Below, piece after piece: positions 12,270 to 17,759 of a stretch of DNA of 20,478 bases. A model generated the notes under the pieces. That model saw only the letters and a program-made list of their open reading frames with translations. It was not told where the DNA came from and did not search any database. The stretch is from positions 473,662-494,139 of the forward strand of contig JADLKH010000004.1 of assembly GCA_015657435.1 (NCBI GenBank). Direction: 5' to 3'. The translations under genes were made by a program, and so were the position numbers. The DNA comes from Synergistales bacterium. Lineage in GTDB: Bacteria > Synergistota > Synergistia > Synergistales > 79-D21. Each line of letters begins with the position of its first letter. Within the stretch, counting starts at the first letter, position 1.

Positions 12270-12323
12270 CGGAAGGAAGAGGTGGCCTTGTGGCGGCCGG
12301 AAAAAATCGGAAGGGGGATCATC

Positions 12324-13178
12324 ATGGCGAAGAAGAAGGGGCGTCTGGAACTGATGCAGATGAAGCAGGCCGGAGAGAAGGCGGCCTGGATCACGGCGTA
12401 CGATTTTCCCACGGCTTCGTTTGCGGAAGCGGCAGGGATGGACATGATCCTGGTGGGAGACTCGCTGGGCATGGTCGTGCTGGGTTACCAGGGGACGGTG
12501 CCGGTGACGATGGACGACTGCATCCGTCATGCCCAGGCGGTGCGCCGGGGTGCGCCGAACACGTTCTGCATCGGGGACATGCCGTTTTTGAGCTACCAGG
12601 TTTCCGACGAGAAGGCCGTGGAGAACGCGGGCCGCTTTTTGAAGGAAGCGGACATGGACGCGATCAAGCTGGAGGGCGGTCGTCGGGTGGCGGGCCGGAT
12701 CCGTGCGATCACGGACGCGGGGATCCAGGTGATGGGTCACATCGGCCTGACGCCGCAGAGTTCGGGGCAGCTGGGGGGATTCAAGGCCCAGGGGCGTGAC
12801 CCGGACAGCGCGCGGGAGCTGATCAGGGACGCGCTGGCCGTGCAGGAGGCGGGTGCGTACGCGCTGCTGCTGGAGGCGGTTCCGCCGGAGCTGACGGAAT
12901 ACATCTGGAAGAAGCTGACGATCCCGGTGTACTCGATCGGAGCCGGTGAGCCGTGCGACGGCCAGCTGATCATCTGCGGGGACATGCTGGGTCTTTTCCA
13001 GGCGTTCACGCCGAAGTTCGTCAAGAAGTACGCGTCGGTGGCGGAGGTGGAGATCGCGGCCTTCAAGGAATACGTGTCGGACGTGAAGAAGTCCGTGTTC
13101 CCGGCGGACGAGCACGTCTACCACATCCTGAAGGGCAGGGAGGAAGACTTCGCCCGCATGCTCCAGGAGTTCGAATAG
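12324..13178 (+). CDS. panB: 3-methyl-2-oxobutanoate hydroxymethyltransferase (ketopantoate hydroxymethyltransferase)
   Basis: This enzyme catalyses the first committed step of pantothenate/CoA synthesis, transferring a one-carbon unit from methylene-tetrahydrofolate to 2-oxoisovalerate. The 284-residue TIM-barrel protein carries VGDSLGMVVLG with metal ligand D46, then D85 in IGDMPF, E117 in KLEGG and the general base E184 in LLLEAV, matching E. coli D45, D84, E114 and E181. The start at 12324 is supported by AAGGGGG 6 bases upstream; an in-frame ATG at 12282 lacks such a site. panC and panD are not adjacent. By eye the gene prefers G-ending codons (GCG, GTG, CTG, ACG) more than its neighbours. 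Its substrate is a valine-pathway intermediate. Confidence 0.95.
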   Translation: MAKKKGRLELMQMKQAGEKAAWITAYDFPTASFAEAAGMDMILVGDSLGMVVLGYQGTVPVTMDDCIRHAQAVRRGAPNTFCIGDMPFLSYQVSDEKAVENAGRFLKEADMDAIKLEGGRRVAGRIRAITDAGIQVMGHIGLTPQSSGQLGGFKAQGRDPDSARELIRDALAVQEAGAYALLLEAVPPELTEYIWKKLTIPVYSIGAGEPCDGQLIICGDMLGLFQAFTPKFVKKYASVAEVEIAAFKEYVSDVKKSVFPADEHVYHILKGREEDFARMLQEFE

Positions 13179-15068: not shown

Positions 15069-16142
15069 TCAATTGAAGTCGCTTCCGGGCAGGGTGAAGC
15101 GAAACCCTTCGTCAAAGAGCGCAAGGCAGGCGTCGACGACGTCGGCGTCAAAGCGTTTCGCGCGGTTCGACCGGATTTCGTCAAGGGCGATCCGGGATCC
15201 GAGGGCCGGCCTGTAGGGGCGATCGGCCGAGATTGCCTCGACCACGTCCGCTACGGCGATGATGCGTGCCTCGATCAGGATCTCCTCTCCCCTGAGCCCA
15301 TCCGGGTAGCCCGAACCGTCGATCCGCTCGTGGTGCTGCAGGACGGTTTTCGCCAGCGGCCAGGGGAAATCGACCTGTTCCAGGATTTCGTACCCGCTCC
15401 GGCTGTGGGTTTCGAGCAGGTTTTTCTCGATCCCCGTCAGGGCCTGGGGCTTGGTCAGGATCTCCGCCGGGATCGAGATCTTGCCGATGTCGTGGACGAG
15501 CGAGGTCAGGTAGATCCTGTGGCAGAAGGCCTCGTCGAGGCCGAGGCGTACACCGATGGCTTTTGCCAGCTGGGCGACCTTCTTCTGGTGTCCCACCGTG
15601 TAGGGGTCCCTTTTTTCGATCGTGGTCGAGAGCAGGCCGATCGTCTGTTCCAGGAGCCGATCCAGCTTTCCGACACTGTCCGACAGCGCTTCCGCGGCTC
15701 TGCAAAGCTCTTTTTCCGTCTCCTTCTGCCGGCTGATGTCGCGATAAATCCAGAAAGAACCCCGGTCGGAAGCCTCGATGTTGAGAGGGACCCCCATGAT
15801 GGAGACGAAAATGAGCGAGCCGTCCTTGCGGGCGCGGGGGGCCTCGGCAAGGATCCGGTCCTTTTCGAGGATGCCCGACCAGAGGGATCCCGAGTGAAGG
15901 GCCATTTGGGGGGTTCGGATGACGAGGTCGTCAAGCGGGCGCCCCAGGATTTCGTCTTCTTCGTAGCCGAAAATGCGGCAGAATTCGGTGTTCACCATCC
16001 TGACGACGCGCTTCGAGTCGCAGAGGACGGTTCCCTCCGGCAGCGTTTCGAACAAACGGCCGAACAAGCCGGTTTCCTTTTGCCGTGTCTTTTCCGTCGT
16101 GCCCAGGAGAATCGCCTCCGTTGAACCTCTTGATGGGAACAC
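15069..16142 (-). CDS. PAS/HD-GYP protein, probable cyclic-di-GMP phosphodiesterase
   Basis: This 357-residue cytoplasmic signalling protein probably degrades cyclic di-GMP. A PAS domain (about 28-140) includes FETLPEGTVLCDSKRVVRMVN and the PAC-like end WIYRDISRQKETEKE. A short coiled linker leads to a complete HD-GYP domain: H185, the HDIGK metal motif (217-221), HHERIDGSGYPDGLRG (270-285) and IIAVADVVEAI. No receiver or membrane domain is present, so the PAS domain is the input. The longest reading starts at GTG 16142, only 5 bases after a good -10 box. An in-frame CTG at 16106, 8 bases after GGAGG, is an alternative start losing 12 residues. It probably heads a unit with the next two minus-strand genes. 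Confidence 0.88.
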   Translation of the reverse strand: MFPSRGSTEAILLGTTEKTRQKETGLFGRLFETLPEGTVLCDSKRVVRMVNTEFCRIFGYEEDEILGRPLDDLVIRTPQMALHSGSLWSGILEKDRILAEAPRARKDGSLIFVSIMGVPLNIEASDRGSFWIYRDISRQKETEKELCRAAEALSDSVGKLDRLLEQTIGLLSTTIEKRDPYTVGHQKKVAQLAKAIGVRLGLDEAFCHRIYLTSLVHDIGKISIPAEILTKPQALTGIEKNLLETHSRSGYEILEQVDFPWPLAKTVLQHHERIDGSGYPDGLRGEEILIEARIIAVADVVEAISADRPYRPALGSRIALDEIRSNRAKRFDADVVDACLALFDEGFRFTLPGSDFN

Positions 16143-16176: not shown

Positions 16177-16205
16177 TTCACCGAGACAACGAGATGGGAA
16201 GGGAC

Positions 16206-16255
16206 AAAAAAACGGCGCGTCCCGGATCCCTTTGGGGATGAATCCGGTCGCGCCG
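16206..16255 (-). terminator. Rho-independent terminator after the 55-residue ORF
   Basis: Reading the minus strand, CGGCGCG pairs with CGCGCCG and CCGGAT with ATCCGG. Single-base mismatches separate the two stems, and a run of seven T (16206-16212) follows. It lies about 30 bases past the small ORF's stop and insulates it from the HD-GYP gene. Confidence 0.88.
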
Positions 16256-16285
16256 TGCGCTTTCCCGCCCGGGCAGGTTCGGCTT

Positions 16286-16453
16286 CTACCGATATCCCTC
16301 GAAGGGGCCCCGGAAGGCCATCCAGGACCAGGGGATGCCTCGACGGTGCTCAGCGGGTTTTTCCTGGAACTGCGCGAGCTCGTCCGCAAGGGTGTTCGCC
16401 GGAAGGTTCTCCGCTCTTCTCAATGCCTGGAATATCAGTTTTTCGTTCAACAT
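16286..16453 (-). CDS. Small unrecognised protein downstream of a branched-chain attenuator
   Basis: I do not recognise this 55-residue protein. It begins MLNEKLIFQALRRAENL, a likely amphipathic helix followed by a charged segment, and ends with an aromatic-rich tail, IPWSWMAFRGPFEGYR. It has no membrane segment and no cysteines. The ATG at 16453 has AAAGGGGAG about 6 bases upstream. A longer version would start at 16489 without a site. It is the only open frame between the leader terminator (16563) and the next terminator (16206-16255), so it would be expressed when the attenuator is read through, or from an unseen internal promoter. The coding call rests on its ribosome site and flanking signals, since the chain is short. 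Confidence 0.55.
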   Translation of the reverse strand: MLNEKLIFQALRRAENLPANTLADELAQFQEKPAEHRRGIPWSWMAFRGPFEGYR

Positions 16454-16562
16454 GGAACTCTCCCCTTTCCGTATGATCGTCTTATTCATCAGATTAGGCC
16501 GCCTGTTCCGTGCACTCGTCTCAACCTTTTCCGGTCCGGTTCCCTCGCCTCCCCTCGAAATG

Positions 16563-16599
16563 AAAAAAGGCCGGGACCCGAATTTTTCGGGTCCCGGCC
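16563..16599 (-). terminator. Intrinsic terminator of the leader RNA (attenuator)
   Basis: A perfect stem with 14-base arms (16569-16582 and 16586-16599) around a 3-base loop is followed on the minus strand by six T (16563-16568). It lies about 20 bases after the leader peptide stop, the usual position of an attenuator. The plus strand has no T run, so it acts on minus-strand transcription. Confidence 0.92.
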
Positions 16600-16620
16600 T
16601 GGGTTTGCGGTCAACGGCGC

Positions 16621-16713
16621 CTAAACGCCGGCCACCCCAGGAGGGGACCCGCGGCTAATAATCAGGGCTACGACTACGAGCAGTCCATTGTTCAAGGCGC
16701 TGAAGCCCTTCAT
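16621..16713 (-). CDS. Leader peptide with Leu/Val/Ile control codons
   Basis: This is a 30-codon ORF starting with ATG, preceded by AAGGAGG, and ending in TAG. Residues 11-19 read LLVVVALII, so eight of nine are branched-chain residues, as in the enterobacterial ilvL leader. The remainder, SRGSPPGVAGV, spans the region that can form the antiterminator. A ribosome slowed at the early Leu/Val codons would leave 16644-16651 free, while one reaching the stop would cover it. The peptide itself probably has no other function. It is too short to score by coding statistics, so the call rests on codon content plus promoter, ribosome site and terminator. Confidence 0.8.
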   Translation of the reverse strand: MKGFSALNNGLLVVVALIISRGSPPGVAGV

Positions 16714-16764
16714 GTGGCGTCTCCTCCTTCCGGGTCAAGCCCAAGGGTTTAATGAATTTTGGGA

Positions 16765-16793
16765 ATTGTACAGGACAGCGGCTTGCGTGTCAA
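16765..16793 (-). promoter_or_regulatory. Consensus sigma70 promoter of the leader RNA
   Basis: On the minus strand, TTGACA (16788-16793, perfect) and TACAAT (16765-16770, one mismatch) are separated by exactly 17 bases. The start would be near 16758. It is the best promoter match in the window, expected for a biosynthetic operon controlled mainly by attenuation. Confidence 0.85.
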
Positions 16794-16883
16794 GCTGAAT
16801 ACTGCATGCCGTTGATTTTGAAGATCCTGGAGGTTGCAGGGATCGACCGATGATGACAAGATGAACGCAAGGAGGTGTTGATT

Positions 16884-17759
16884 TTGAATTTTTCGTGGCT
16901 GTTCTGGTTTTTCATTTTGGCGAGCATGCTGACACCGGTGTTCCGGCAGAAACTCCTGGAATCGCAGAGGCGATCGGTCCTCATGAGGCTGGAGAAGAAG
17001 CGCGCTTCACGGGTGATCACCCTGATCCACCGGCAGGAAACGGTTTCCTTCCTGGGAATCCCGGTTTCGCGCTACATCAACGTGGACGATTCCGAGGAGA
17101 TTCTCCGGGCGATTCGGCTGACTCCGTCCGATCTTCCGATCGATCTGGTTCTCCATACTCCGGGCGGGCTTGTCCTGGCCGCGGAACAGATCGCCTGCGC
17201 CCTGATCCGGCATGAGGCTCCGGTGACGGTGTTCGTCCCCCATTACGCCATGTCGGGCGGAACGCTGCTCGCCCTGGCGGCCGACCGCATCGTCATGGAC
17301 CCGAACGCGGTGCTGGGGCCCGTCGATCCGCAGCTTGGACAGATGCCCGCCGCGTCCATCCTGAAGGTCCTGGAACAGAAGGACATCAACGAGATCGACG
17401 ACCAGACCCTCATCTTTGCCGACATTTCCCGAAAGGCGATCAGGCAGGTCCGGGAGACGGTCGTCACCATCACGACGGCCAACGGGATGGAAAAAGAGAA
17501 GGCCGAGGCCCTTGCGGACAAGCTGACCCTGGGGAACTGGACCCATGATTATCCGATCGGCGCCGAGGAAGCCGTCGAGATGGGGTTCCCGGCCGACACG
17601 AACATGCCCGAAGAAGTCTACGCGCTCATGATGCTCTACCCGCAGCAGGCGGCCATGAGGCCTTCCGTCATGTATATCCCGATGCCCTACGAGGGCCCGA
17701 AGGGACCTCGGAAGGCCCGAGGGCTGCTGGGCCTCTTCCGCGGGGGCGAGGACCGTTGA
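16884..17759 (+). CDS. Membrane-anchored ClpP-fold serine protease (SDH/SppA-like)
   Basis: This 291-residue protein belongs to the ClpP/crotonase-fold serine peptidases known as the SDH (serine dehydrogenase proteinase) family. An N-terminal hydrophobic anchor (about 2-20) is followed by a basic stretch and the protease domain. It carries the oxyanion loop HTPGG (91-95), the nucleophile S124 in HYAMSGGT, then AADRIVMDPNAVLGPVDPQLGQ, a typical family block. The active site probably sits at the inner membrane. The start is taken as TTG at 16884, 8 bases after AAGGAGG. An in-frame GTG at 16875 overlaps that site and is unlikely. Its stop overlaps the rhomboid start, so the two are co-translated. 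Targets are unknown. Confidence 0.85.
   Translation: MNFSWLFWFFILASMLTPVFRQKLLESQRRSVLMRLEKKRASRVITLIHRQETVSFLGIPVSRYINVDDSEEILRAIRLTPSDLPIDLVLHTPGGLVLAAEQIACALIRHEAPVTVFVPHYAMSGGTLLALAADRIVMDPNAVLGPVDPQLGQMPAASILKVLEQKDINEIDDQTLIFADISRKAIRQVRETVVTITTANGMEKEKAEALADKLTLGNWTHDYPIGAEEAVEMGFPADTNMPEEVYALMMLYPQQAAMRPSVMYIPMPYEGPKGPRKARGLLGLFRGGEDR

Follow-up and report, generated by a model that had tools for sequence, protein, structure and literature searches.

A Leu/Val/Ile-type attenuator lies upstream of a micropeptide gene with a conserved C-terminus in Synergistales

The ilvL and leuL regions of E. coli are ribosome-mediated attenuators of ilv/leu genes. A ribosome-mediated ilv/leu attenuator has also been reported at ilvBNC of Corynebacterium (PMC11857589, PMC10272879), and Bacillus is reported to make the small protein anti-TRAP (rtpA) in response to uncharged tRNA-Trp, by way of a T-box (PMC11255114). 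Candidates for regulation by uORFs and short ORFs have been surveyed in five genomes including that of Thermovirga lienii, a member of the phylum considered here (PMC6429828). An attenuator is taken to serve the operon of its sensed amino acid; the locus described here ties one to a family of micropeptides.

The window, a 20,478-nucleotide stretch of DNA at 473662-494139 of contig 2 of a Synergistales genome assembly (2.68 Mb, 85.6% complete), has the established layout of ilv/leu attenuation that an earlier note had recognized in it, with promoter, leader, antiterminator and terminator all in place on the minus strand (Table 1). The promoter was located as that note had it, with TTGACA at 16793-16788, 17 bases, and TACAAT at 16770-16765; scanning 3.5 kb turned up a single site of this kind where shuffled sequence would give 0.8, and the match by itself is not significant. 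Three congeners (G001, G003 and G004) retain both hexamers and their spacing while the spacer sequence is altered. The 30-codon leader was also confirmed, a short ORF that is preceded by a ribosome site and contains a stretch of codons for the amino acids it would sense. Conservation of leader and terminator in relatives, a check named beforehand, was borne out: the leader is kept in three congeners and the terminator covaries. Among loci, the leader peptide varies apart from the codon run and a GSPPG-like part. We attribute the conservation of this part to RNA pairing: it reads GGPPSGG in family f3 and VLPG or SLPG elsewhere, yet the RNA beneath retains a comparable element, and CCTGG can pair with CCAGG ahead of the terminator. 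Stalling at PPG is thus less likely to be the main cause.

Table 1. Features of the attenuator and peptide locus and its neighbours, in positions of the window
Feature	Positions	Strand	Basis
ClpP-like serine proteinase gene (SDH_protease), divergent, on the other side of the leader	16875..17759		Pfam
Promoter TTGACA-17-TACAAT, sigma-70 type	16765..16793	(-)	11/12 consensus matches; kept in 3 congeners
Leader Shine-Dalgarno GGAAGGAGGAG, also proposed segment 1 able to pair with segment 2	16721..16731	(-)	sequence, MFE fold, cognate-versus-permuted pairing
Leader ORF, 30 codons and stop, MKGFSALNNGLLVVVALIISRGSPPGVAGV	16621..16713	(-)	sequence; conserved in 3 congeners
Regulatory codons LLVVVALII	16657..16683	(-)	translation; Leu/Val/Ile run in 32/32 peptide-locus leaders
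Segment 2, CGGGTCCC-CT-CCTGGG, antiterminator 5' side	16636..16651	(-)	pair counts, permutation test, fold
Segment 3, CCCAGG-CC-GGGACCCG, antiterminator 3' side, overlapping terminator 5' arm	16588..16603	(-)	pair counts, fold
Intrinsic terminator, 15-pair stem, loop of 3, T run	16563..16600	(-)	terminator scan, covariation, fold
Peptide-gene ribosome site GGAAAGGGGA, continuing GAG	16461..16470	(-)	sequence
Target peptide, 55 aa, MLNEKLIFQAL...PWSWMAFRGPFEGYR and stop	16286..16453	(-)	translation, conservation, pN/pS
C-terminal signature RGPFEGYR	16289..16312	(-)	motif scans, peptide comparison
Peptide-gene terminator, hairpin 16256-16212 and T run	16205..16256	(-)	fold z -3.56, 0/200 shuffles
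PAS/HD-GYP gene	15069..16142	(-)	Pfam

Between leader and gene lies an intrinsic terminator conserved as a structure, whose hairpin (16600-16568) folds at -32.2 kcal/mol (z -6.55, 0 of 200 shuffles as good); terminator-like sites in the scanned region number 8 against 5.3 expected. The perfect stem and the T's reported by the earlier note are there, but the terminator scan gives an arm of 15 pairs, not 14. Its antiterminator also pairs perfectly over 8 bp (16651-16644 with 16595-16588), but the extent was understated: a second block, CCTGGG at 16636-16641 with CCCAGG at 16598-16603, adds a further 6 bp. The 74-nt segment 16656-16583 folds as the antiterminator at -43.6 kcal/mol (z -2.93, 1 of 200 shuffles as good). 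In the full-length minimum free energy (MFE) fold, the leader Shine-Dalgarno pairs with CCTCC (segments 1:2), and segment 1 may be the leader ribosome site itself; folded in isolation, 1:2 does no better than shuffled sequence (z +0.60, 138/200). Neither a T-box nor any other Rfam element matched the window at gathering scores.

Covariation supports a mutually exclusive antiterminator on alignment A3, whose 33 rows are the 32 peptide loci and one leu-type attenuator. There, 79.1% of cells are paired against 71.7% in shuffled alignments, 48 cells are two-sided against 20.6, and covariation is 0.305 against 0.173 (0/500 shuffles reach each of these); pairs with two-sided change number 7 against 5.3 (10/500), and further pair types, 16 against 15.6 (285/500), are not above shuffles. 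Sliding the partner by one column lowers pairing, two-sided changes and covariation, a comparison that is tilted toward the original structure by its having been drawn from the window's own sequence. Two of the three pairs in the last block mostly fail. The signal is weaker on A1, the alignment that made the covariance model of the attenuator core: 83.7% of cells are paired against 81.6% (0/500) and the covariation score is reached by 2/500 shuffles, while two of five measures are not above shuffles (3 pairs with two-sided change against 2.8, 356/500; 10 further pair types against 11.6, 479/500), and the second-block pairs (columns 43/94 and 45/92) fail in many rows. The terminator structure is strongly supported, with 44 two-sided cells against 15.1 shuffled (0/500). 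Cognate segments also pair better than permuted ones in two tests, both inflated by sequence relatedness: segments 2 and 3 pair at -19.35 versus -16.52 kcal/mol in 127 attenuators (of 130 rows, leaving out an antisense shadow, a partial match and one duplicate), and segment 2 pairs with its own leader ribosome site (1:2) at -19.9 versus -17.3 kcal/mol in the 120 of the 127 for which a leader was found by rule (7 without), each with 0/5000 permutations as good. The own terminator arm is not the single best partner of segment 2, with a median rank of 25 of 127.

The same module recurs in the source genome and across the order. Looking for ilv/leu operons with a leader of their own, as the earlier note had proposed, we found a second copy (G000:C1:101584, leader VKPSNRVSKQLVLVLALIIGHGFPPGAAGA, locus L047) on a contig other than the window's, preceding ilvN, ilvC and leuA, with an aconitase-family piece (leuC) further behind. 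Among these genes, one 944-aa frame (L047:10726-13560) joins domains of isopropylmalate dehydrogenase with those of a thiamine-pyrophosphate enzyme (acetolactate-synthase-like) and may be a leuB-ilvB fusion. Directly downstream of the attenuator in the window there are no branched-chain biosynthetic genes. A DNA search of 41 genomes, most of whose weak matches are probably chance, recovered the leader module in three congeners and partially in other families. The covariance model, R1, was built from 29 sequences with mainly Leu/Val/Ile leaders, and the window leader, itself one of the 29, scores 114 bits with it. R1 matches occur in 135 of 180 genomes of the order (E up to 0.1). The targets read are mostly amino-acid genes, such as ilvN- or ilvC-like, leuA-like and transporter-like genes, and leader type and target combine as Val-rich with panB-like, Thr or Met with homoserine-dehydrogenase-like, Met with Met-ABC-transporter-like, and Phe/Tyr with phenylacetate-CoA-ligase-like genes; these names were given by eye, with Pfam matches behind those of the L047 ilv/leu genes and of one AMP-binding ligase, and one transporter-like target protein had no match in Pfam.

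Several of these loci are worth recording in their own right. Phe/Tyr-rich leaders precede phenylacetate-CoA-ligase-like genes (one with Pfam AMP-binding matches, the others assigned by eye) at L048, L163, L167, L168, L169, L190, L194, L213, L215, L216 and L218, which suggests that aromatic amino acids are reached through arylacetates. L050 (G011:C4:107907-) has a panB-like gene (by eye) behind a Val-rich leader of this class; in the window, R1 matches only the leader (16562-16680) and its antisense shadow and nothing ahead of panB (12282-13178). Genome G011 has 22 R1 matches, the most of the 14 genomes searched (3-16 in the others, antisense shadows counted); two of its leaders, at C8:513395 and C8:513635, encode the same peptide and lie 240 bases from each other.

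What lies downstream of the window's attenuator is, as described in the earlier note, a 55-residue ORF, its own terminator and an HD-GYP gene. That note called the attenuator an orphan and offered, among other options, that its ilv/leu operon had moved away. The name is misleading, given the ORF behind it and the joining of peptide and attenuator at 32 of 32 loci, and the move is contradicted by the ilv/leu genes elsewhere with their own attenuator and by the retention of the locus in three other species. The 55-residue ORF is present in three of the four other genomes of the genus at 65-75% identity (genus searches did not find the locus in the fourth, G002), and in three other species leader, peptide and neighbouring protease gene are kept together, as a synteny check proposed in advance had asked. 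Within the genus pN/pS is 0.25-0.37 (0.13-0.60 over all pairs compared), and against G001 and G004 the last ten codons show 7-8 synonymous and 0 nonsynonymous changes; by this substitution pattern the ORF is under purifying selection as a coding sequence. An in-frame alternative start at 16489 would give a version of 67 aa; purine-rich sites like the window's precede most peptide starts. The window peptide has no Pfam match, five family members scanned had none in NCBIfam, the peptide profile had none in PDB sequences, and structure prediction gives no confident fold (pLDDT 59.9, pTM 0.21).

The cassette could in principle be a remnant, an attenuator that lost its ilv/leu operon and is followed by a spurious or decaying ORF. 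Many attenuators of this class do precede ilv/leu genes and the peptide is without a known domain, but the purifying selection, the conservation of the peptide across 14 genera and the presence elsewhere in the genome of ilv/leu genes behind an attenuator of their own make this highly improbable. By these comparisons the locus does not look like a leftover.

The peptides make up a family of 39-74 residues with little in common beyond a C-terminal [FWY]RGPFEG-x-R-stop. Across 185 genomes of the phylum we count 33 ORFs at 32 loci, which belong to 31 genomes from 14 genera and 5 families (the second G011 peptide is counted from an inner start, 49 aa, rather than from the outer, 75 aa); in the other families, the short ORFs behind the same attenuator resemble the window ORF in the C-terminus alone. 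The pattern RGPFEGY[R/S] followed by TRR has 14 matches in 12 of 180 genomes (0 in the reversed control), each of which, on reading, ends a tiny ORF behind an attenuator. Searched in 84,980 species, it returned nine stretches, all from this phylum and titled Synergistales, Synergistaceae, Thermovirgaceae or Acetomicrobium, all Synergistetes bacteria. A wider pattern (a codon for an aromatic residue, or also Leu or Cys, and RGPFEG) has 45 matches in 32 of the 185 genomes, with 8 in the reversed control, and 43 of the 45 fall in the 33 short ORFs. The remaining two were set aside as chance, one in an unrelated frame without an attenuator (G173, L298) and one out of frame in a metal-ATPase-like gene (G179:C23, by eye).

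While the RGPFEG residues are fixed by the search pattern, and the preceding aromatic partly so, the final Arg and the position before the stop are not, and every one of the 33 ORFs has x-R-stop at the end of its last motif copy. The motif occurs twice in 11 of 13 f3 peptides (one with KGPFEG as first copy), and all six f4 peptides have a first copy altered to [KR]GPFVG. All four Gly codons, all four Pro codons and four to six Arg codons are used in the motif, so it is the protein, not the DNA, that is conserved there. Leu, Ile and Val make up 9.4% of the 33 peptides on average (range 1.9-21.7%), against 21.5-26.5% in six proteins of the window, a composition that would suit a product made during Leu/Val/Ile shortage; the window peptide itself is not very poor in Leu/Ile (8/55). 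Two other origins of the motif were considered and rejected. For a phage origin, the pattern had no match in viral_contigs; for copying from a larger protein, GPF[E/D]GY had 19 matches in 180 genomes (10 in the reversed control), of which 14 read GPFEGY and are the 14 peptide matches, and 5 read GPFDGY.

At each of the 32 peptide loci the attenuator precedes the peptide gene in the same orientation, and 19 of these attenuators are absent from A1; this association selects one of the options left by the earlier note, that the small ORF is the target. Starting instead from 40 attenuators taken from the ranked list in other genomes (three of them, L233, L250 and L259, cut short by contig ends), a short ORF follows in 10, and the motif is present in 10 of those 10. 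Leaders at peptide loci are of the Leu/Val/Ile type in 32 of 32 cases whereas 25 of 88 other leaders are classed as aromatic, Met or Thr, a contrast to be read with R1 itself having been built mainly on Leu/Val/Ile leaders.

A further option held that the terminated leader RNA or the leader peptide acts in trans, the small ORF being secondary. A stable terminated RNA of about 190 nt is indeed expected (structured fold, z -2.73, 4 of 200 shuffles as good), and peTrpL of Sinorhizobium is a published precedent (PMC7298713). But what is kept from locus to locus is the C-terminus of the downstream peptide, not the leader peptide outside its codon run and GSPPG-like part; the GSPPG part is accounted for by RNA pairing, and every one of the 32 peptide loci pairs the attenuator with the peptide; we regard an acting leader as very unlikely.

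Neighbouring genes differ between families, mostly as judged by eye. They are protease and HD-GYP genes in f1 (Pfam), addB/addA-like genes in f10 and a hydratase-like gene with leu-like genes in f8 (both by eye; the hydratase-like gene has no Pfam match), a TRAP-transporter-like set or, on the other strand, iscS/iscU-like genes in f3 (by eye), and others in f4. In five f10 genomes, G013 (L231), G022 (L312), G036 (L056), G174 (L227) and G177 (L228), an addB-like and then an addA-like gene follow within about 200 nt after the peptide gene (by eye); the arrangement is not clear in a sixth, G179 (L229). Read-through in f10 could couple amino-acid starvation to DNA repair genes.

Such neighbours bear on whether the peptide might be a second cis element, in which translation of RGPFEG-x-R-stop stalls ribosomes and regulates what follows. 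TnaC is an arrest peptide, and strict C-terminal conservation right before the stop together with a variable N-terminus resembles such peptides; the addB/addA-like arrangement in f10 would give such a stall something to control. In the window, however, a strong terminator separates the peptide gene from the HD-GYP gene behind it, which is unrelated; what lies downstream also changes from family to family, and the internal second motif copy of f3 and f4 peptides does not suit arrest at a stop codon, which leaves regulation in cis unlikely. The same variable N-terminus and invariant C-terminus, with one or two motif copies per peptide, could also mark a precursor undergoing cleavage or modification, either RiPP-like or secreted as a signal, its C-terminus serving as core or recognition end. 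This we find rather doubtful, as no modifying enzyme recurs at the loci looked at (where neighbours were mostly judged by eye and few run against families) and no signal-peptide-like hydrophobic stretch was seen by eye.

The reading we favour, and hold to be probably correct, is that a ribosome-mediated attenuator responds to the level of charged Leu/Val/Ile tRNA and governs a micropeptide gene whose product, made on shortage, would act in trans through its C-terminus. Sequence comparison establishes what this reading builds on: the anatomy, the alternative structures, the conservation, the coding selection and the pairing of peptide with attenuator. The direction of control would be that of established attenuation biology. 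With charged tRNA plentiful, the ribosome would clear the LLVVVALII codons and segment 2 would be covered or re-paired with the leader's own Shine-Dalgarno, so that the terminator (3:4) forms and transcription stops. With charged tRNA scarce, the ribosome would stall before segment 2, leaving it free to pair with segment 3 and block the terminator, and polymerase would read through to the 55-residue gene. The peptide so made would then act on a partner in trans through its [FWY]RGPFEG-x-R C-terminus.

Two f8 loci carry what may be an aromatic parallel. At L176 (G011:C14:72507+) and L200 (G020:C163:4171+), aromatic leaders (SYYFYYWF and SYYFYFWF) each precede two tandem tiny ORFs that share the C-termini [IV]P[RH]WW[KR]Y-stop and LPCLR-stop. 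The PxWW[KR]Y-stop pattern occurs in 3 of 185 genomes, the two f8 genomes and G155 (3 in the reversed control); the G155 match ends in TGG, not a stop, and stop-ended matches are confined to the two f8 genomes.

With slightly less than even confidence, we propose that Synergistales may own a dedicated starvation-peptide system, in which the amino-acid attenuator module also drives micropeptide genes with a C-terminal docking motif in one or two copies, the RGPFEG peptide being the trans effector of branched-chain starvation; the aromatic parallel would make this a general class. If so, the micropeptides behind aromatic attenuators in two genomes (P[RH]WW[KR]Y, LPCLR) would point to one peptide type per amino-acid group. 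For the peptide, Leu/Val/Ile starvation is now a likely inducer and the C-terminus a likely functional end; with a set of natural variants available as well, its role is directly testable. The locus further suggests that where an attenuator seems an "orphan" in gene-poor surroundings, it may be regulating a gene small enough to be overlooked.

Among the matches listed from open-licence literature, the available text contained nothing on this element or on RGPFEG peptides in Synergistetes, Thermovirga lienii or comparative attenuator work; the survey of short-ORF elements concerns short ORFs too, but the portion available makes no mention of this attenuator class or of RGPFEG peptides (PMC6429828). 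With the ilv/leu attenuators the locus shares the promoter, the leader peptide with Leu/Val/Ile codons and the mutually exclusive antiterminator and terminator; unlike them, it controls a micropeptide rather than biosynthetic genes, through a sequence module of its own without an Rfam match. It resembles Sinorhizobium trpL (peTrpL) in that an attenuator output is proposed to work away from its own operon, but there (PMC7298713) the leader peptide is the product and here it is a separate downstream gene. With anti-TRAP it shares a small protein switched on by uncharged tRNA, through a leader-peptide attenuator here rather than a T-box; anti-TRAP binds zinc, whereas the window peptide is without Cys and so lacks an anti-TRAP-like zinc-binding Cys motif, and no sequence relation was seen as far as tested. 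The simplest model would be a small effector, induced by starvation and docking by its C-terminal end, with a logic like that of anti-TRAP. The kind of switch is already known; what is new is the kind of target, a micropeptide behind a standard attenuator.
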